Below, piece by piece: positions 8,055-44,620 of a stretch of 64,000 nt of DNA. Source of the DNA: Paenibacillus puerhi (GTDB lineage Bacteria > Bacillota > Bacilli > Paenibacillales > NBRC-103111); contig NZ_WUWM01000004.1 in the NCBI RefSeq assembly GCF_009846885.1, forward strand, positions 1 to 64,000. The letters are read 5' to 3'. The position numbers and the translations under genes are program-made. Positions within the stretch are counted from its first letter, which is position 1. Each line of letters opens with the position of its first letter. The notes beneath the pieces were generated by a model. The model made no database searches. It saw only the letters and a list, made by a program, of their open reading frames with translations, and was not told the DNA's origin.

Positions 8055-9362
8055 CTAGGAAACGGAGTGCTTCACGCGTTTGGCTGCGCCTCCGCTGCCA
8101 CTGGAGCTCGAACCGCTGCTGCCCGTCTCCAATGTATCCAGAAATTCTTGATTTGTTTTGGTGTCGGCAAACTTTTTCAAGAACGACTCCGTATACTCAT
8201 GCGAATCGTTCATGTTTTTGCGGATCGCCCACACCTTGTCCAGTTCTTCCTTGCTGAGCAGCATCTCTTCGCGTCTCGTTCCCGAACGGCGAATATCGAT
8301 AGCCGGGAATACGCGGCGTTCCGCCAGCTTGCGGTCCAGATGCAGCTCCAGGTTGCCCGTTCCTTTGAATTCCTCATAAATGACATCGTCCATACGCGAC
8401 CCTGTCTCGATCAGAGCTGTCGCCAGTATCGTCAAGCTGCCGCCTTCCTCGATATTGCGGGCAGCCCCGAAGAACCGCTTGGGACGATGGAATGCACCCG
8501 GATCGATCCCCCCGGACAACGTGCGGCCTGTCGGAGGCACGACAAGGTTGTAGGCGCGAGCCAGGCGGGTGATGCTGTCGAGCAGAATCACGACATCCTT
8601 CTTATGCTCGACCATCCGCGTCGCTCTCTCAAGCACCAGCTCCGCCACTTTGATGTGATTCTCAGGCAATTCGTCGAAGGTCGAGGCGATAACCTCGCCT
8701 TTCACGGAACGCTGCATATCGGTCACTTCTTCCGGACGCTCGTCGATCAAGAGTACGAATAATTCCACCTCAGGATGATTGGTCGAAATACTGTTGGCAA
8801 TTTCCTTGAGAAGCAAAGTCTTGCCCGCTTTGGGCGGAGCCACGATCAGCCCGCGCTGGCCGAAACCGACAGGAGCCAGTAAATCCATCAATCGGGTGGA
8901 TACTTTGGTAGGGGTCGTTTCCAAAACTAGTTTTTTCTGCGGATAAAGAGGAGTCAGCGCTGGAAAGTGGAGACGTTCTGCAGCGGTCTCCGGATTCTCC
9001 CCATTGACGGCATCCACGTGAAGGAGTCCGAAATACCGTTCGTTCTCCTTGGGAGGCCGGCATTTCCCCGATACGAGGTCGCCCGAGCGGAGGTCGAACC
9101 TCCGAATCTGCGAGGCGGAAATATAGATGTCCTCGGCGCTCGGCAAATAGTTGATCGGACGCAGGAAGCCAAAGCCCTCCTGCAGGACATCGAGCACGCC
9201 CTGCATGAACATGAGCCCGCCCTTCTCGGCTTGCGCCCTGAGAATAGCAAAGATGAGTTCTTTCTTTTTCATTTGACCGTAATACGGAATCTGATGTGTC
9301 TTGGCGAGCTTGTAGAGCTCTGTAAGCTTCAGCGCCTCTAACTGAGCGAGCTGCATATCCAT
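8055..9362 (-). CDS. rho: Transcription termination factor Rho
   Basis: 435 residues. An N-terminal helical Rho-N domain (about 5-45) is followed by the RNA-binding cold-shock-like domain (about 50-125) and the RecA-like ATPase with Walker [10 protein letters not shown] (175-183), [13 protein letters not shown] and the Q/R-loop region [15 protein letters not shown]. Rho is a hexameric ATP-dependent helicase that terminates untranslated transcripts. It ends in an unusual Ser/Gly-rich tail ([11 protein letters not shown]) followed by a basic segment. The gene order fba-murA-rho-rpmE is conserved. Confidence 0.97.
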
Positions 9363-9452
9363 CTTGTACCTACCACCAAACTATTAAAATTTCTATTCTT
9401 CCGAAATATACTCTAGCCATGCCCCAAACCTTGCTGTTCTATACTCCGGGGC

Positions 9453-10706
9453 TCAGTCTTCCTGCCGCCATACGTCGGCGCCCAAATTAACCAGATTGGC
9501 AACCAGGTGATCATAGCCTCTGTCGATATATTCGACCCCGGTGATCTCGGTGGTGCCCCCTGCGACGGTCAGACCGGCGATAACCAGCGATGCGCCCGCT
9601 CTCAGATCGGTCGCCTTCACCCTAGCCGCAGACAGCGGTCCGCCCTCGATAATCGCCGAACGGCCTTCCACTTTAATCTTGGCGCCCATGCGCACAAGCT
9701 CTGGAATATGCTTAAACCGATTGGAGTATACGTAATCACTAAGAATACTGACGCCGCGCGTCTGCGTGAGCAGACTGCTCATCGGCGATTGCAGATCCGT
9801 CGCAAAGCCCGGGTACACAAGCGCCTTCACGTCCACGCTCTCGTATTCCGGTTGACCCACGACACGGATCGATTCATCCATCTCATATATATGAACGCCC
9901 ATCTCCTGGAGCTTCGCCGTCAGCGCCTCCAGATGTTTAGGGATAACGTTGTCAACAATGACATCTCCACGTGTGGCCGCAGCTGCGATCATATAGGTGC
10001 CCGCCTGAATACGGTCGGGGATGATCGAATGCCGGCAGCCCTGAAGACCATCTACGCCCTGAATCCGGATAGTTTCCGTCCCGGCGCCCTTGATTTTGGC
10101 GCCCATGGCGTTCAAAAGCGTTGCTACATCTATGATTTCAGGCTCTTTTGCCGCATTTTCAATAATGGTGACGCCTTTGGCTCTTGAAGCCGCCAGCATA
10201 ATATTAATCGTTGCCCCTACACTTGCCACGTCCAAATAAATCTTGGCGCCGCGCAATTGCTTCGCCCGGATATGTAGCGCTCCGTTCTCGTTCGAAACCT
10301 CGGCGCCTAGCGCCTCAAAGCCTTTGATATGCTGATCGATGGGTCTCGGCTCAAAATTACAGCCGCCCGGAAGCCCGATCACCGCCTCGCCGAATCGGCC
10401 AAGCAGAGCTCCCATCAAATAATAAGAAGCACGCAGTTTCTTTACATTGCCATTAGGCATCGGCTTGGAAACAAGCCGGCTAGGATCGATCACCATCTGG
10501 TCGTTATCCCATCGGACCGTTGCACCGAGTTCTTCAAGCAGCTCGGTATAAATCGCCACATCGCTGAGCGTTGGAAGATTGTCCAGCGTCACAGTCGATT
10601 CCGATAATATGGCAGCCGGTATAAGCGCGATAGCGCTATTTTTCGCACCGCTGATTTGAACGGTTCCCCGCAGCGGACGGCCGCCGGCGATCATCAATTT
10701 CTCCAT
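9453..10706 (-). CDS. murA: UDP-N-acetylglucosamine 1-carboxyvinyltransferase
   Basis: 417 residues. Substrate lysine K22 is in ISGAKNSA, and catalytic Cys116 is in [13 protein letters not shown], so fosfomycin-sensitive chemistry is expected. MurA transfers enolpyruvate from PEP to UDP-GlcNAc, the first committed step of peptidoglycan synthesis. Firmicutes usually have two copies; the position between fba and rho corresponds to B. subtilis murAB (murZ). It starts about 190 bp downstream of fba, past a weak terminator. Confidence 0.96.
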
Positions 10707-36659: not shown

Positions 36660-38255
36660 CTAGATCTCCTTCTCGCGCACATAGAGGCTCAGATGCTCCA
36701 GCATCCGTGACAGATCCCTGTCCTTCAGCCCTCCCATACAGGCCATTTGTACCCAGTTGCGTGCAAGGAGATATTCGCTCTCATACTGCAGCTCAAAGCC
36801 TTGATCGCCCATATACTCGCCGAGCCTTCTGGAGGCTAGCCGCTCCGGCAGGACAAGCGTCAGCATATAAGGCGTTTGATGTTCACGCGAGGCGAGCACC
36901 TGCAACCCCAACGCCTCCACAGCGTCACGCATCCGGTCTAACCGGGCGGACTGGACGCCAAACGGATCGCCATGCTCGTATACGGATAGCGCTGCTTGAA
37001 GCGCCGCCAGCAGGTTGGACGATTGCGAGAAGGGCACGCCCTCCGCATGATGATACAGCGATGCATCCACATAGGGAGGTATGCCCGGAGTAGCCGCTGC
37101 GTCAGCCAAGGGCGTGTCCTGCATACCGCGCAGGATGAAGCTGAGCCCCGTATACGAGCCGAGCGCTTTGCCGCTGACGCCGCTTGCCCAGCGTACGCCT
37201 GACAGGTCGAGGGGTACCGCACCCAGGCTGCTGACGCAATCCGCCGCCAGGGAGAGCCCATGCCTGCGGGCTATCGCTTTGAGGCGTTCCAGATCGTTGA
37301 GAACTCCTGTCGAGGTTTCCCCGTGGACGAACCACAGCCAGGCGTAGGCGCCCTTCTCTACCGCAGCTTCCACTTGCCCGTAGTCGTAGGGCTCCCCGTA
37401 AGCAGCCGTAAGCGAATCGTGCTCAAGCTCCCAGCGCTGCGCATGACGCAGCAGCCTTTGGCCGAATTCCCCGTTGGCCAGTATAAGTCCGCGTCCTCCG
37501 GTCCGGCGCAGCTCCCCCGCGATCGCGTCGTTGGCAAGAGTGCCGCTGCCCAGCAGGATGTCGACGGAGCCCGCGCCGGTTAACGCCGCCAGCTTCCTGC
37601 GCACCGTCTCATGCAGCCGGAGGAATGCCTGCGAACGATGGGGAATCGGGCGCCGCAGCAGCGCGCGCGTGACTTCCGGAATAATCTCCACAGGTCCGGC
37701 CATAAAGCTGACCGCCTTCTGGATCAGTCCATAAGCCCGGGAAGACTCGTAAGAGGACGGAGTCATGTACATCGGCTGGTACCGCGCCTGTTCGCTGCCT
37801 ACCAAACCGCCGAACGGAATAAAGCCGAGATGCTCGTATAGTCTAAGCTCCCGGGTTGTCCCCGAGATGACGGCCATCTCGTAATCCCGCGACTCCATAT
37901 AACGGTCTAGATAGCGAATCAGCCCGTACAGGAGGCGGCTGCCCCGGTAGGCCTTATCCACGGCCAGCAGCCGGATTTCCACCATCCGCTCCGGGCGGAA
38001 AGGCAGCAGCCCCTCGAAGCCGTCTATCTTCTCTTCGAGCGAGAACGGCCGGCGGTCGCGGACGGCCAGCATACCTGCCACCCGTTCCCCGTCGACGGCA
38101 AGGATGTACGTATTCTCGGCATGAAACCGATCCACAAGCAGGCGGGCTTCATTCGGCTCATGCTGCGGAATTTCCTCCACGAACGTCTCGTAGTTCAATC
38201 GAAAAATTTGTTCCATATCCCGCTGCGTCTCGGCAGTCCTGTATCTGATAGCCAT
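36660..38255 (-). CDS. GNAT acyltransferase-class V aminotransferase fusion
   Basis: 531 residues. An N-terminal GNAT domain (about 1-165; MEQIFRLNYETFVEEIP resembles acyl-homoserine-lactone and N-acyl amino acid synthases; MVEIRLLAVDKAYRGS) is fused to a PLP-dependent class V aminotransferase (about 185-530) with GPVEIIPEVTRALL, HGETSTGV, D339 (AADCVSSLG) and PLP lysine K363 (ASGVSGKALGS). The architecture suggests amine formation followed by N-acylation. It starts 6 bp after the PlsY-like gene, so the two form an operon (AAGGAG upstream of the start). The substrate is unknown; lipid or lipoamino acid products are plausible. Confidence 0.85.
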   Translation of the reverse strand: MAIRYRTAETQRDMEQIFRLNYETFVEEIPQHEPNEARLLVDRFHAENTYILAVDGERVAGMLAVRDRRPFSLEEKIDGFEGLLPFRPERMVEIRLLAVDKAYRGSRLLYGLIRYLDRYMESRDYEMAVISGTTRELRLYEHLGFIPFGGLVGSEQARYQPMYMTPSSYESSRAYGLIQKAVSFMAGPVEIIPEVTRALLRRPIPHRSQAFLRLHETVRRKLAALTGAGSVDILLGSGTLANDAIAGELRRTGGRGLILANGEFGQRLLRHAQRWELEHDSLTAAYGEPYDYGQVEAAVEKGAYAWLWFVHGETSTGVLNDLERLKAIARRHGLSLAADCVSSLGAVPLDLSGVRWASGVSGKALGSYTGLSFILRGMQDTPLADAAATPGIPPYVDASLYHHAEGVPFSQSSNLLAALQAALSVYEHGDPFGVQSARLDRMRDAVEALGLQVLASREHQTPYMLTLVLPERLASRRLGEYMGDQGFELQYESEYLLARNWVQMACMGGLKDRDLSRMLEHLSLYVREKEI

Positions 38256-38261
38256 AGCCGC

Positions 38262-38849
38262 TCAACTCCTTCGCTGCATCCAGAACGCTTTGATATTGAC
38301 CCGATGGGCATAAAAAATCGCCGCAGCCACCCCGCTTGCCAGAGCGACAACTGCCGGTCCCTGACCCTGATACGTATACAGCACCAACACGGGGAATAGC
38401 CCCACCCCGCACAAGCCTGCCGGCGTCCAGGAGCGGAACGCCAGAAGAAGGATGGCGGCGATCGCTATCATCGCGAGCCATATGGCTCCATCGAACAGCA
38501 GCGCTCCCCCGCAAAATACGGACATCCCCTTCCCCCCGCGAAACGAAAGAAACGCAGGAAACAGATGCCCCAGCACGACGGCCAGGAAGGCCGCGAGCGT
38601 AAAGGCGGGGCCGGCATCCATCGTCTTGGCGCAGCCCACGACCAGCGCCCCTTTGGCTGCATCGCCGATGAAGGTCCAGAAGAAGGCCGAGCGGCCGTAG
38701 ATTCTTCCCGCGTTCCTTGCGCCCGGATTCCCGCTGCCGACTGTCCGCAGATCGCGTCCGTCCTTCAGCATCGCGATCCAGTACCCCGCCAGCAGTCCGC
38801 CCAGCCCGTAGCTGAGCAGCATAAACGCTCCGGCAGCCCATATCGTCAT
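38262..38849 (-). CDS. PlsY-like glycerol-3-phosphate acyltransferase
   Basis: 195 residues with five to six membrane helices and the PlsY motifs: GSGNPGARNAGR (phosphate-binding loop), then VVLGHLFPAFLSFRGGKGMS (GHxxP...GGKG). PlsY transfers acyl from acyl-phosphate to glycerol-3-phosphate. The housekeeping plsY is usually elsewhere (with parE or alone), so this divergent copy in an operon with a GNAT-aminotransferase may be a specialised paralogue acting on another acceptor. AGGAGAGG precedes the ATG. Confidence 0.88.
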   Translation of the reverse strand: MTIWAAGAFMLLSYGLGGLLAGYWIAMLKDGRDLRTVGSGNPGARNAGRIYGRSAFFWTFIGDAAKGALVVGCAKTMDAGPAFTLAAFLAVVLGHLFPAFLSFRGGKGMSVFCGGALLFDGAIWLAMIAIAAILLLAFRSWTPAGLCGVGLFPVLVLYTYQGQGPAVVALASGVAAAIFYAHRVNIKAFWMQRRS

Positions 38850-40461: not shown

Positions 40462-41589
40462 TTAAGGCTTGCGGTAACGCTGCATAAGCGTCTGCATGGC
40501 GGGAGTAACCTCCGGTCCCAGTTCCTCACTTACCTGCTGCTGAAGACGATCGATCAATTTTAATACGGCGCCTCCGTTGCCCGCCGCATCCAGATGAAGC
40601 AGCAGACGGTAGTAGTGCATATTCGCGTAAGGCTCAAGCTCGATCAGCTTGCGGAGCAGAGCCTCGCGCCGTGGTCCCTGGGCATGGTTGAGCGCCCGCT
40701 CCAGCGCCTGGACATAGGCTGCACGCAGCTCGTCGCGCCGCCCCTCCGCCCACCGATAATATTCGGTCTCGAAGTAATCCCCCCGGTACAGGGCGAGCAG
40801 CTCCTCGACTTCGGCCTCCTCCGCATCGCGCAGCTTGGACTCCAGCCGCTTGACGTCGCTGGCGATGCTCTCGACACGGAGCATGTACCGCTCATCGGTA
40901 AACACGACCATCTCGTGACAGCCAACCGCCTTCAGCATATGGCGCAGATGATACATGGTCGTATGGAACAAGGCCTGTGCCCGATCTGCGGACAGCTCCG
41001 GCCACAGCGCATCCAGAATATGATGGCGATAGACCGGCATGCCGTCATGATGCCACAAATAGGCGAACAGCTCCTTCGTCTTCCTCGTCCGCCAGCTGAG
41101 CAGCTCCCCCTTGGCCGTGTAAAGCTCCAAGCTTCCCAGAGCATTCAGCTTCAGCGGCGGCTCGCAGCCCGGCGACTCGGCCCCATCGGGCTTGGGGTCC
41201 GTTTCCGGGGCAGGGACAGCCCTGGCCATCCGGGAGGGCCGGTACCGGCTGATGAAGGTCGCCAGCCGATCCTTCGACACAGGCTTCATCAGATAGCCCC
41301 GGGCGTACAAGTCAAAGGCGTGAAGGGCATATTCTTTGTAAGCCGTCACGAAGACGATATCGGCTTCGCTGCAGCGCTGCTGCAGCTGCTCGGCGGCGGC
41401 CAGACCATGAAGGCCCGGCATCTCGATATCAAGGAAGATCAAGTCGGGCTGGAGCCTCGCCACCTGCTCCAGCGCCTCATCCGCACGCAGAAACCTTCCT
41501 AATACAGTCACCCCGCCGATCTCCTCCAGCAGGATCTCAAGCACATCCAGCGCAATTTCTTCGTCGTCAATCAAGATCGCTTTGATCAT
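40462..41589 (-). CDS. Response regulator with winged-helix and BTAD output domains
   Basis: 375 residues from the ATG at 41589 (GGAGGG upstream). The receiver has D9/D10 and phospho-acceptor D54 (LIFLDIEMPG). After a linker comes a winged helix (about 130-210; RTRKTKELFAYLWHHDG) and a BTAD helical domain (about 245-375) as in SARP/AfsR-type activators. It overlaps the end of the upstream hybrid kinase gene by 23 bp, so it is its cognate partner by translation coupling. Confidence 0.9.
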   Translation of the reverse strand: MIKAILIDDEEIALDVLEILLEEIGGVTVLGRFLRADEALEQVARLQPDLIFLDIEMPGLHGLAAAEQLQQRCSEADIVFVTAYKEYALHAFDLYARGYLMKPVSKDRLATFISRYRPSRMARAVPAPETDPKPDGAESPGCEPPLKLNALGSLELYTAKGELLSWRTRKTKELFAYLWHHDGMPVYRHHILDALWPELSADRAQALFHTTMYHLRHMLKAVGCHEMVVFTDERYMLRVESIASDVKRLESKLRDAEEAEVEELLALYRGDYFETEYYRWAEGRRDELRAAYVQALERALNHAQGPRREALLRKLIELEPYANMHYYRLLLHLDAAGNGGAVLKLIDRLQQQVSEELGPEVTPAMQTLMQRYRKP

Positions 41590-44500
41590 AAAGGCCCTCC
41601 GGCAATTTAAACTGGAACCGGGCCCCCTCACCAGGGCGGCTCCGTATATGTAGCTTCTGCGCATAGAGCATCTGCAGCCGGCGGTTGACATTCCCGATGC
41701 CGATGCCTGTACGCTGCTGGCTGGTCAGTTGTGTCAGCGTCTCTTCATCCATCCCCACGCCATCATCCTCTACTACAAGGTTCACCGCTCCGCCCCTGTC
41801 ACGAAACACCCGAATCTCCACCGTACCGCCGCTCGGCTTCGGACCGATGCCATGACGCACCGCGTTTTCGACCAGCGGCTGGAGCGTCAGCGGCGGTATC
41901 TTGAAGTTCAAGTCGGTTTCCAGCCGATAGCGGACCTCCAGTCGGCTTCCGAAGCGAAGCTGCTCAATAGCCAGATACGCCCTAACCAGCTCCAGCTCCT
42001 TTTCGAAGGGAACCAGATTCCCTTGGAACACAAAAGTAAACTTGGCCCGCAAGTATGTAGCCAGATGATCGATGGTCTCCCTAAGCTTGTCGACATCTTT
42101 GTAGCTGAGCCCCACCAGGGCATTCATGCTGTTATAAAGAAAGTGGGGCGTAATCTGGGCCTGCAAAAAATCCATCTCCCGGCGGACCGCTTGTTCCGAC
42201 GACCTCTTCACGGCCACGAGGGAACGGACCCGGGCCTTGAGCTCCGCCAGCTCAAAGGGCTTCTGCAAAATATCGTTGGCCCCGGCCTGGAAGGAGGCCA
42301 GGATATCGCCGTGCTGACCGGAAGCGGTCAGCATTAACACCGGCAGCTCCGCCAGATTGTGCAGCTTGCGGATTTCGCGGCATACGTCAAGGCCCGAGAT
42401 ACCAGGCATCATCAGATCGAGCAGCACAAGATCGGGCGGCGGCGACTGGGCCAGATACTCCAGGGCCTCGCCTCCGCTTTGGACCGCCTTGTACGCGTAG
42501 TTCATGGACAGTACCGCATCGGCGCCAATTTTCAGATTGGAACGCTCATCATCCACGATAAGCACCGTGACTCCATCCGATGCCGCTGCGACCAGCGATT
42601 CCGGGAAGTCTTCCGTCTCTTCCTCCGAGCTCCGCCAAGAAACCGGCGAATCCCTCTCCCCAGGCTCGGCAATCGGAAGGAAAAAAGTAAAGGCTGACCC
42701 TTGCCCTTGCTGGGATACAACCTCCAATCGTCCCCCTTGAAGCTCCACCAGTTGCTTGGTGATGCTGAGCCCAAGCCCAATGCCCGAGCGGTCGCCTACG
42801 TCGGCCGAGGAAGTTTCGAAGGGATCGAACACCCGGGCCAGCTGCTCGGGGGCCATCCCGATCCCCGTATCCGCTACCGTAATGGCCAGTTCGTCGCCAT
42901 GCTTCCGCGCATAAATCCGAACAGAGCCCCGGTCTGTAAATTTCATCCCATTTTCCAGCAAATTGTATACAATCTGGCGAAGCCGGTTCTCATCCGCCAA
43001 TACGAGCGGCAGCTCCGGAGAAAGCTCGTCCAGAAGAGCGACCTGCTTGTTGCGGGGAGCTATGGACAGCATGTCGAACACCAGGCGAACCGTCATCCCA
43101 AGGTCTACAGGCGTCTGGTGAATGCGAAGCCGGCCTGCCCTGATCTGCGACATGTCCAGAATATCGTGGATAAGACCGGCCAGCCGCCGTCCGACCAAAT
43201 TCATCAGCCGGATATTTTCCCGATGCTGCGGGCTAAGCGCCGCTTCCCGGTCGTCAAGCAATGTCTGCGACAAATTAATAATCCCATGCAGCGGCGTCCG
43301 CAGCTCGTGAGAGGTTTTGGCCAGAAACTCATCCTTGTGCCGGTCATGAGCGATCAGCTGCAAGGAAAGCTGTTCATTGCGCACGAAGGCCCGCTGCAGC
43401 CGGTTGGAGGAAAGGAAGGCCAGCGAAAAGACCAATAACAACGGGGTCACAATCATGAAGTAAGGATGGTCCATCCCCAGCTCATACCGGTATTGGGCGG
43501 ATATCCAGGTCAGGATCATAAAAAATACGTTTAATGCCATAAAAACCGGCAAATATAAGCCTCTGTTGCGAAGCCGAAAGAGAACGACGAAAATATCAAT
43601 AAACGTTGCGGCCTGCAAGAGAATATTGAACGGCTGCGTATAACCGAGATAATCATTGGGGCCGAACAGGATGACTAGGCAGTAAGCATAGGCGATCCAG
43701 CGCATGGTCCGGAAAAAGGGACGATCCAGCTCGTCCAGATACCGGTAAATGTACAGGCTGAAAAACAGAAAGGACAGCAAGGCCGTGATGAACAGTATTT
43801 TCTGCAGCCATACGAACGGCAGCTCCGGAAAAAGCGCGGCCGCCAATATTTCATTATCGATACTGAAGAAAACACCCGCAGCCAAACAAAACAGACTCAG
43901 GAACATCAGATGCCGTTCCTTGCTCCATTGTCTGAACATACCCGCGAAGTAAAGTCCGAATACTACCATCGTCGTCAGCAGCACCATATCGGTCAGTCGC
44001 GCCTTGTCTCGGTGCCTGGCCATATCCGTCAGGGGTCCGAACTCGGGAGCCTGGATTAGCCCTCCCTTGAAAAACCGCAGACTTGCAACTTGAATGACGA
44101 TTTCTACCGGACCCGCCTCCACCTTCTCCGACCCGAAGAAAGGGAAATTGCTAGGGATGAACTCCTCCGGAAGCAGGGAAGGCTTCCCGTTGCCGCCAAG
44201 CTCGGTTCCGTTTATAAACCACCGGCTGGACAGCCTCGTTTTCTTAGCCCGAACGCTGTAAATACCCGGTTGCTCCACCTGAACCACGAGCCGATAAGTG
44301 CCTGCGCCATAGCCCGCTTTCCCGTCGGCCGAAACTTCATCCTTCCAGCTGCCCGGCACGTTAATTAGTTTTCCGGTCGCGGGCAGAACAGGATTGCTGC
44401 GGAAGTCGGCAGGGGTAAGCAGCTGGTTCGGGTAAAATTCCCATTGCCCGCGGAGAGGCAGCACGCCGTTCTTCTGGTAGTCCCAGTCACGGGCATCCAG

Positions 44501-44620
44501 GATGCCTCCGGCAGCATAATTCATTTTTAAAGAGGGATGAAGCCACTGAAAAATCAGCACGCTGGTCGATGTGACAAACAATAGGATCATCGCAATCAAT
44601 ATGGGGAAAGGCTTCGTCAT
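41567..44620 (-). CDS. Hybrid sensor kinase: 7TM-DISM, HisKA, REC and LytS-like kinase modules
   Basis: 1017 residues. A TM (about 5-25) and extracellular jelly-roll domain (about 40-190) lead into seven hydrophobic segments (about 210-405), then HisKA with H438 (KTSHELRTPLHG) and HATPase. A receiver follows with D735 (LVLLDLMMPG) and K787. The last part carries a second, LytS/YesM-type kinase core with H826 (ITPHFLYNSMNAL) and its own HATPase (about 915-1010). Two kinase modules in one chain around a receiver are unusual. It is co-translated with the BTAD regulator. Confidence 0.92.
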   Translation of the reverse strand: MTKPFPILIAMILLFVTSTSVLIFQWLHPSLKMNYAAGGILDARDWDYQKNGVLPLRGQWEFYPNQLLTPADFRSNPVLPATGKLINVPGSWKDEVSADGKAGYGAGTYRLVVQVEQPGIYSVRAKKTRLSSRWFINGTELGGNGKPSLLPEEFIPSNFPFFGSEKVEAGPVEIVIQVASLRFFKGGLIQAPEFGPLTDMARHRDKARLTDMVLLTTMVVFGLYFAGMFRQWSKERHLMFLSLFCLAAGVFFSIDNEILAAALFPELPFVWLQKILFITALLSFLFFSLYIYRYLDELDRPFFRTMRWIAYAYCLVILFGPNDYLGYTQPFNILLQAATFIDIFVVLFRLRNRGLYLPVFMALNVFFMILTWISAQYRYELGMDHPYFMIVTPLLLVFSLAFLSSNRLQRAFVRNEQLSLQLIAHDRHKDEFLAKTSHELRTPLHGIINLSQTLLDDREAALSPQHRENIRLMNLVGRRLAGLIHDILDMSQIRAGRLRIHQTPVDLGMTVRLVFDMLSIAPRNKQVALLDELSPELPLVLADENRLRQIVYNLLENGMKFTDRGSVRIYARKHGDELAITVADTGIGMAPEQLARVFDPFETSSADVGDRSGIGLGLSITKQLVELQGGRLEVVSQQGQGSAFTFFLPIAEPGERDSPVSWRSSEEETEDFPESLVAAASDGVTVLIVDDERSNLKIGADAVLSMNYAYKAVQSGGEALEYLAQSPPPDLVLLDLMMPGISGLDVCREIRKLHNLAELPVLMLTASGQHGDILASFQAGANDILQKPFELAELKARVRSLVAVKRSSEQAVRREMDFLQAQITPHFLYNSMNALVGLSYKDVDKLRETIDHLATYLRAKFTFVFQGNLVPFEKELELVRAYLAIEQLRFGSRLEVRYRLETDLNFKIPPLTLQPLVENAVRHGIGPKPSGGTVEIRVFRDRGGAVNLVVEDDGVGMDEETLTQLTSQQRTGIGIGNVNRRLQMLYAQKLHIRSRPGEGARFQFKLPEGLYDQSDLD

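Follow-up and report, generated by a model that had tools for sequence, protein, structure and literature searches.

What a bacterium makes with a PlsY-like acyltransferase encoded directly before a GNAT-aminotransferase fusion is the question raised by a locus of Paenibacillus puerhi. We analysed the window, a stretch of 64,000 nt (NZ_WUWM01000004.1, positions 1 to 64,000), and compared its two genes with relatives in other genomes and with described systems.

Organization of the locus

The first gene of the pair (38262..38849, minus strand) encodes a PlsY-like membrane acyltransferase of 195 aa that belongs to a dedicated paralog clade and matches PF02660 with 114.9 bits (cut-off 24.1). After 6 bp it is followed by the fusion gene (36660..38255, minus strand), which encodes a protein of 531 aa, probably of the N-acylserinol-synthase type. 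Residues 1-182 (37710..38255, minus strand) form a GNAT domain of the PF13444/FeeM type, identified by its match to PF13444, and residues 183-531 (36660..37709, minus strand) form a class V (fold type I) PLP aminotransferase domain, identified by fold match. The initial annotation had described a 531-residue GNAT/PLP aminotransferase fusion 6 bp after a gene with PlsY motifs, and this was confirmed. A scan for promoters and terminators gave signals not above those of shuffled sequences. Elsewhere in the window, at 40462-44620, a 1017-aa ORF and a 409-aa ORF resembled, by eye, a hybrid sensor kinase and a response regulator.

Distribution and conservation of the gene pair

The PlsY paralog and the fusion are a real and conserved two-gene system. 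Scanning genome contigs with the single window protein found no relative, and a scan with a family alignment found at least 548, the best 80 of which were analysed. According to database labels, these best 80 of at least 548 relatives came from Bacillota, Verrucomicrobia, Planctomycetota, Chloroflexia and Acidobacteria, and further from Deltaproteobacteria/Desulfobacterota, Dadabacteria, Sumerlaeota and others. Conservation of the GNAT stretch in this set is partly a product of selection, because the two search patterns of the family scan lie in the GNAT half. The search motif was absent from 9 loci (the motif-keyed run comprised 72 sequences), and residue counts were taken from the full 80.

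A PlsY ORF was located immediately upstream of the fusion and on the same strand in 64 of these best 80 loci. Of the 64 paired loci, 61 have a distance of -17 to +41 bp between the two genes, and the other three have 84, 227 and 273 bp. By database label, paired loci occurred in four phyla, with examples in Bacillota, Verrucomicrobia (L081, L099, L110 and L116), Chloroflexia (L100) and Planctomycetota (L104). Coincidental proximity or general synteny was rejected as an explanation, since the outer neighbours varied among loci and the next commonest adjacent gene family was found in only 11 of the 80. In the Paenibacillaceae set, the full fusion was found in 7 of 104 genomes, including that of the window, and PlsY was directly upstream in all six others; five of the 80 loci (L040, L043, L053, L059 and L077) are on the same contigs as genomes of this set. 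At the level of the class, 49 of 398 sampled genomes matched the fusion at E <= 1e-80, and a second set of loci with 1.5-kb flanks, which overlaps the first in at least three contigs (judged by length, L063, L042 and L111 recur in it as L181, L182 and L183), had PlsY in 17 of 29 loci and none within 1.5 kb in 12. A placement of the two genes apart in relatives had been named beforehand as evidence against a joint pathway; the majority of loci (64/80 and 17/29) keep them together, and a minority have no adjacent PlsY. The pair is also carried by a Cytobacillus plasmid. One full-length match was found among 4 plasmid records, and none among 2 phage records.

Pairwise distances of PlsY and of the fusion were correlated (r 0.92 over 64 sequences, in part reflecting shared species history), and 0 of 1000 permutations reached a value as high. 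Among the alignments used, A3 omits L117, which has unknown residues, A4 omits L041, which has a PlsY fragment of 123 aa, and A5 comprises the window and 64 of the 80 loci.

An adjacent PlsY was absent in 16 of the 80 loci. No PlsY was detected by the family profile in nine of these 16 genomes, in two others (G904 and G913) a linked-type PlsY is located away from the fusion (L210, and L211 with one in-frame stop in the match), and the PlsYs found in the remaining five have Thr41, as canonical PlsYs do. With 16 of 80 loci unpaired and nine fusion genomes without a detectable PlsY, the pairing is strong and not universal.

Several loci showed features of their own. In a same-genus relative, decayed remnants of both PlsY and the fusion were observed (L038, G023:C38, about 9272-9897). 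Dadabacteria/Desulfobacterota loci without PlsY (L087, L096, L102, L105, L108, L117 and L118) have recurring neighbours of their own (clusters 50 and 38). The label or the contig of L045, labelled Arthrobacter beigongshangensis, may be wrong, since its neighbour families (clusters 5, 11 and 17) are common to Sporosarcina loci. Of 116 loci searched, 7, in several genera, have an LTA-synthase-like gene as the next gene after the fusion; one is annotated as LTA synthase family (L209:6596-8449), the others were found by tblastn (L103, L114, L187, L188, L189 and L190), and an adjacent PlsY is absent in three of them (L114, L187 and L188). This downstream gene suggests a link to envelope glycerophosphate lipids or polymers.

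Domains and conserved residues of the fusion

The window fusion matched PF13444 (Acetyltransf_5) with 31.7 bits against a cut-off of 22.4. Among the window and 64 of the best-80 loci, PF13444 was matched by 65 of 65 family members and FeeM by 61 of 65 at E <= 1e-3. A GNAT profile gave only weak matches to PDB sequences (best E 8.6e-4). For the aminotransferase domain, fold matches were PntC-AEPT and PhnW, both among the closest, and AGT, in a fold-match list that spans almost only residues 157-531 of the fusion. D339 and K363 were invariant in all of the best 80 of at least 548 relatives, and Lys363 (codon 37167..37169, minus strand) is by homology the putative PLP Schiff-base lysine. The same 80 relatives all have Gln at position 503 (codon 36747..36749, minus strand), where related class V aminotransferases have Arg, as seen in each of the four listed alignments that extend this far (7e7g, 2dr1, 9os7 and 6pd1). 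In AGT and PhnW, this Arg near the C-terminus contacts the substrate at its carboxylate or phosphonate group. Its replacement by Gln503 would suit a neutral CH2OH in place of COO-, as in dihydroxyacetone phosphate or serinol. A plain serine-glyoxylate aminotransferase, considered as a point against the initial annotation, is thus not what the domain looks like, with Gln503 in 80 of 80 relatives against Arg in the four structures.

The closest folds also raise the reading that the PhnW-like domain handles 2-aminoethylphosphonate, which the GNAT would N-acylate towards an aminoalkylphosphonate lipid. PhnW-AepZ (TIGR03301) was indeed the best NCBIfam match, with 134.9 bits, and the fusion shares the class V fold and the catalytic Asp and Lys with PhnW, AepZ and PntC-AEPT. 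However, this score is far below the equivalog cut-off of 360.8, two other AEP transaminase equivalog models were missed as well (89 of 296 and 82.1 of 400.8 bits), and the Arg of these enzymes, aligned in 7e7g and 6pd1, is replaced by Gln503. The fusion also differs from PntC in the partner of the aminotransferase, a GNAT here and a cytidylyltransferase in PntC. With the PhnW cut-offs missed and PEP mutase above its cut-off in none of 12 fusion genomes, we rejected the phosphonate reading as extremely improbable; the genome of the window gave no PEP mutase match at all, and matches below the cut-off came only from G017 (129.5 bits) and G655 (23.3 bits).

Relation of the fusion to N-acyl serinol synthases

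A family with the same GNAT type has been described from the human microbiome, the hm-NAS N-acyl synthases of PF13444 (PMC9762135). In the portions of the literature consulted, E. coli yielded N-palmitoyl serinol with hm-NAS genes taken from Desulfitobacterium hafniense DP7 and from Bacillus sp. 2_A_57_CT2 (PMC9605164), and the product is reported in its unphosphorylated form (PMC9605164, PMC11271093). The Bacillus cluster is listed in MIBiG as the N-acyl serinol cluster BGC0001683, and its similarity to sponge phosphonate clusters is given as low, 0.16 (PMC12795557), which a PhnW-like domain could cause. Two reviews, as far as consulted, name Gemella as an N-acyl serinol source (PMC10666787, PMC11271093).

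The fusion was the sole PF13444 protein in eight of nine fusion genomes examined, including that of the window; the ninth, G655, has a second one. Two of these eight (G508 and G468) are from outside the class and belong to one Desulfitobacterium-like genus, a name that we infer; dehalogenase genes are present in G508, and none was found in G468. The hm-NAS enzymes assayed by Cohen et al. in 2017 (Nature) reportedly carry an aminotransferase domain. G468 has an intact PlsY-fusion pair. In G508 the fusion is intact, and the PlsY next to it is broken into two ORFs (L223:6540-7121).

The PF13444 domain, the serinol-yielding hm-NAS genes, the position of the fusion as sole PF13444 protein and its occurrence in the Desulfitobacterium-like genus and in Cytobacillus together make it likely that the window fusion is an hm-NAS. 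We regard it with good confidence as one of the N-acyl-serinol type. It is like the N-acyl serinol synthases in its PF13444 domain, and the fusion is present in the Desulfitobacterium-like genus and in Cytobacillus spongiae. A PlsY partner is unmentioned in the parts of the hm-NAS literature consulted.

These results bear on the initial annotation, which read the locus as an operon of a PlsY relative and a GNAT of the acyl-synthase type joined to a PLP aminotransferase, and proposed that the fusion makes an amine and acylates it. Both points are supported. An N-acyl amino acid as the product now appears less likely than serinol (phosphate), given the hm-NAS evidence and Gln503. As to the remark that no described pathway has this pair, the activity of the fusion itself has probably been described, as N-acyl serinol synthase, whereas no description of the PlsY half was found in the literature surveyed.

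The amine is most likely serinol (phosphate) and not an amino acid. An aminotransferase that supplies an amino acid for an N-acyl amino acid, or for an aminolipid resembling ornithine or glycine lipids, would also explain a GNAT of the PF13444/FeeM type, and a GNAT working with an O-acyltransferase is the known plan of aminolipid synthesis. In OlsB/OlsA and GlsB/GlsA, according to the part of the source consulted, a PF13444 N-acyltransferase works with an O-acyltransferase of the LPLAT/PlsC-like type, not PlsY (PMC11631085). The window locus resembles these systems in pairing the two activities, but its O-acyltransferase is of the PlsY type (PF02660) and its N-acyltransferase carries its own aminotransferase. 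The replacement of Arg by an invariant Gln503 speaks against a substrate of the amino-acid type, and the hm-NAS evidence points to serinol (PMC9605164, as consulted). We consider such an aminolipid pathway improbable.

A separate clade of PlsY with changed residues

The window PlsY has the motifs GSGN..A...R, GH.FP, GGKG and HR.N, but it scored below the equivalog cut-offs of canonical PlsY (TIGR00023, 91.7 of 137.2 bits; NF001254, 126.4 of 199 bits). A canonical PlsY is located elsewhere in the genome, on contig C78, so the window gene was rejected as the housekeeping copy. In a PlsY tree of 80 linked copies and 42 others, 30 of these from Paenibacillaceae, one split with a support of 0.98 held all 80 linked copies together with L210 and L211, the unlinked copies from fusion genomes without an adjacent PlsY, and none of the 40 other sequences. 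Further second-copy PlsYs of Paenibacillaceae were also outside the linked clade (0 of 20 inside). L121 was dropped from the tree as too short, and L183 and L111, from the same contig, are counted twice in the tree and in the residue counts below.

Residue roles were taken from the structure of aaPlsY (PDB 5xj5), as described in the part of its report consulted, in which Thr41 contacts the carbonyl of the acyl-phosphate and Ser142 contacts the 2-OH of G3P (PMC5700162). The linked PlsYs keep the clamp for the G3P phosphate (aaPlsY numbering), with S35 in 79, R45 in 76 and K104 in 73 of 80 copies; N180 is found in 53, with Asp there in 15, and His92 and H177 in all 80. At the Thr41 column, in contrast, 71 of 80 linked PlsYs carry Arg, where 39 of the 42 others carry Thr; five linked copies (L103, L110, L122, L189 and L209) keep Thr. 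At the Ser142 column, 72 of 80 linked PlsYs have Gly and 38 of the 42 others Ser, in an alignment that depends on gap placement. The window copy itself shares with aaPlsY the PF02660 family and the equivalents of Ser35, Arg45, His92, Lys104, His177 and Asn180, but by alignment has Arg at Thr41 (Arg45 in window numbering; codon 38715..38717, minus strand), Gly aligned to Ser142 and Ala at Arg183.

For PlsYs at large, the same source, in the part consulted, gives 52.6% conservation of Ser142 and Arg at position 41 in 3.0%, and it reports that T41A left 4.75% of the activity of aaPlsY (PMC5700162). A reduced or altered activity of the linked PlsYs is thus possible. With the clamp kept and Ser142 and Thr41 changed, a phosphate-bearing analogue of G3P that is altered near C2 would fit as the substrate.

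A candidate pathway to a serinol phospholipid

We propose that the aminotransferase domain would convert a three-carbon ketone, most likely dihydroxyacetone phosphate, into serinol phosphate (2-amino-1,3-propanediol phosphate), which the fused GNAT would N-acylate from acyl-ACP or acyl-CoA to N-acyl serinol (phosphate). The dedicated PlsY would then use acyl-phosphate to O-acylate the free hydroxyl of N-acyl-serinol-phosphate, and the resulting N,O-diacyl serinol phosphate could enter membrane-lipid synthesis as an amide analogue of phosphatidic acid. The proposal for the first two steps is based on the product in the literature and on residue logic, with a phosphorylated substrate that we infer; that for O-acylation is based on the conserved pairing and the residue changes. 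Points against the pathway are the unphosphorylated product reported from E. coli, the naming of Gemella as the source in two reviews, the modest conservation of Ser142 in PlsYs at large, the linked copies that keep Thr41 and a possibly reduced PlsY activity; the nine fusion genomes without a detectable PlsY show that the last step is not universal. For the whole two-gene lipid pathway of serinol phosphate, N-acylation and O-acylation by PlsY, we hold the chances to be evenly balanced.

The fusion could instead yield free N-acyl serinol that acts as a signal or is secreted, with PlsY providing extra lysophosphatidic acid or supporting acyl flux and no new phospholipid being made. This would agree with N-palmitoyl serinol as the E. 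coli product (PMC9605164 and PMC11271093, as consulted), with the G3P clamp kept in the linked PlsY and with the lineages that have the fusion and no PlsY. However, a high-scoring canonical PlsY is also present in all 7 Paenibacillaceae fusion genomes, so plain lysophosphatidic acid needs no second enzyme, and the linked PlsYs form a clade of their own, in which the contacts to the donor and the 2-OH are changed and the spacing to the fusion is very tight. We find this alternative unlikely, though the most serious of those considered.

Another order of steps would lead to the same end product, with PlsY acting first on dihydroxyacetone phosphate to give 1-acyl-DHAP, which the aminotransferase would aminate and the GNAT N-acylate. 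PlsY is the first gene of the pair, and DHAP and G3P differ only at C2, near the changed Ser142. Yet hm-NAS genes gave N-palmitoyl serinol in E. coli (PMC9605164, as consulted), and an acylated ketone is not needed if the fusion is an hm-NAS; a PlsY-first order thus seems improbable to us.

The dedicated PlsY partner, with the diacyl serinol phosphate that it implies, is the new part of this system and was not found described in the literature surveyed. The PlsY/fusion pair was likewise not found there, nor was a link between PlsY and serinol, the sole co-mention being the word 'serinolysis'.

Implications

According to the parts of the reports consulted, N-palmitoyl serinol of bacterial origin is an activator of GPR119, and blood glucose was lower in germ-free mice after colonisation with E. 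coli that produce it (PMC11271093; also PMC12594153). The specialised copy of PlsY that adjoins the fusion suggests that the serinol lipid may in fact serve to build an unusual phospholipid of the membrane. Tentatively, and on balance with more doubt than confidence, we suggest that bacteria of at least four phyla may build a phospholipid backbone on serinol phosphate, with an amide where phosphatidic acid has its sn-2 ester, and that the GPR119-active N-acyl serinols of gut bacteria may be the dephosphorylated precursor or breakdown product of this membrane lipid. If this is true, the amide-linked analogue of phosphatidic acid would be a new class of membrane lipid, and it would no longer hold that every PlsY is a G3P enzyme.
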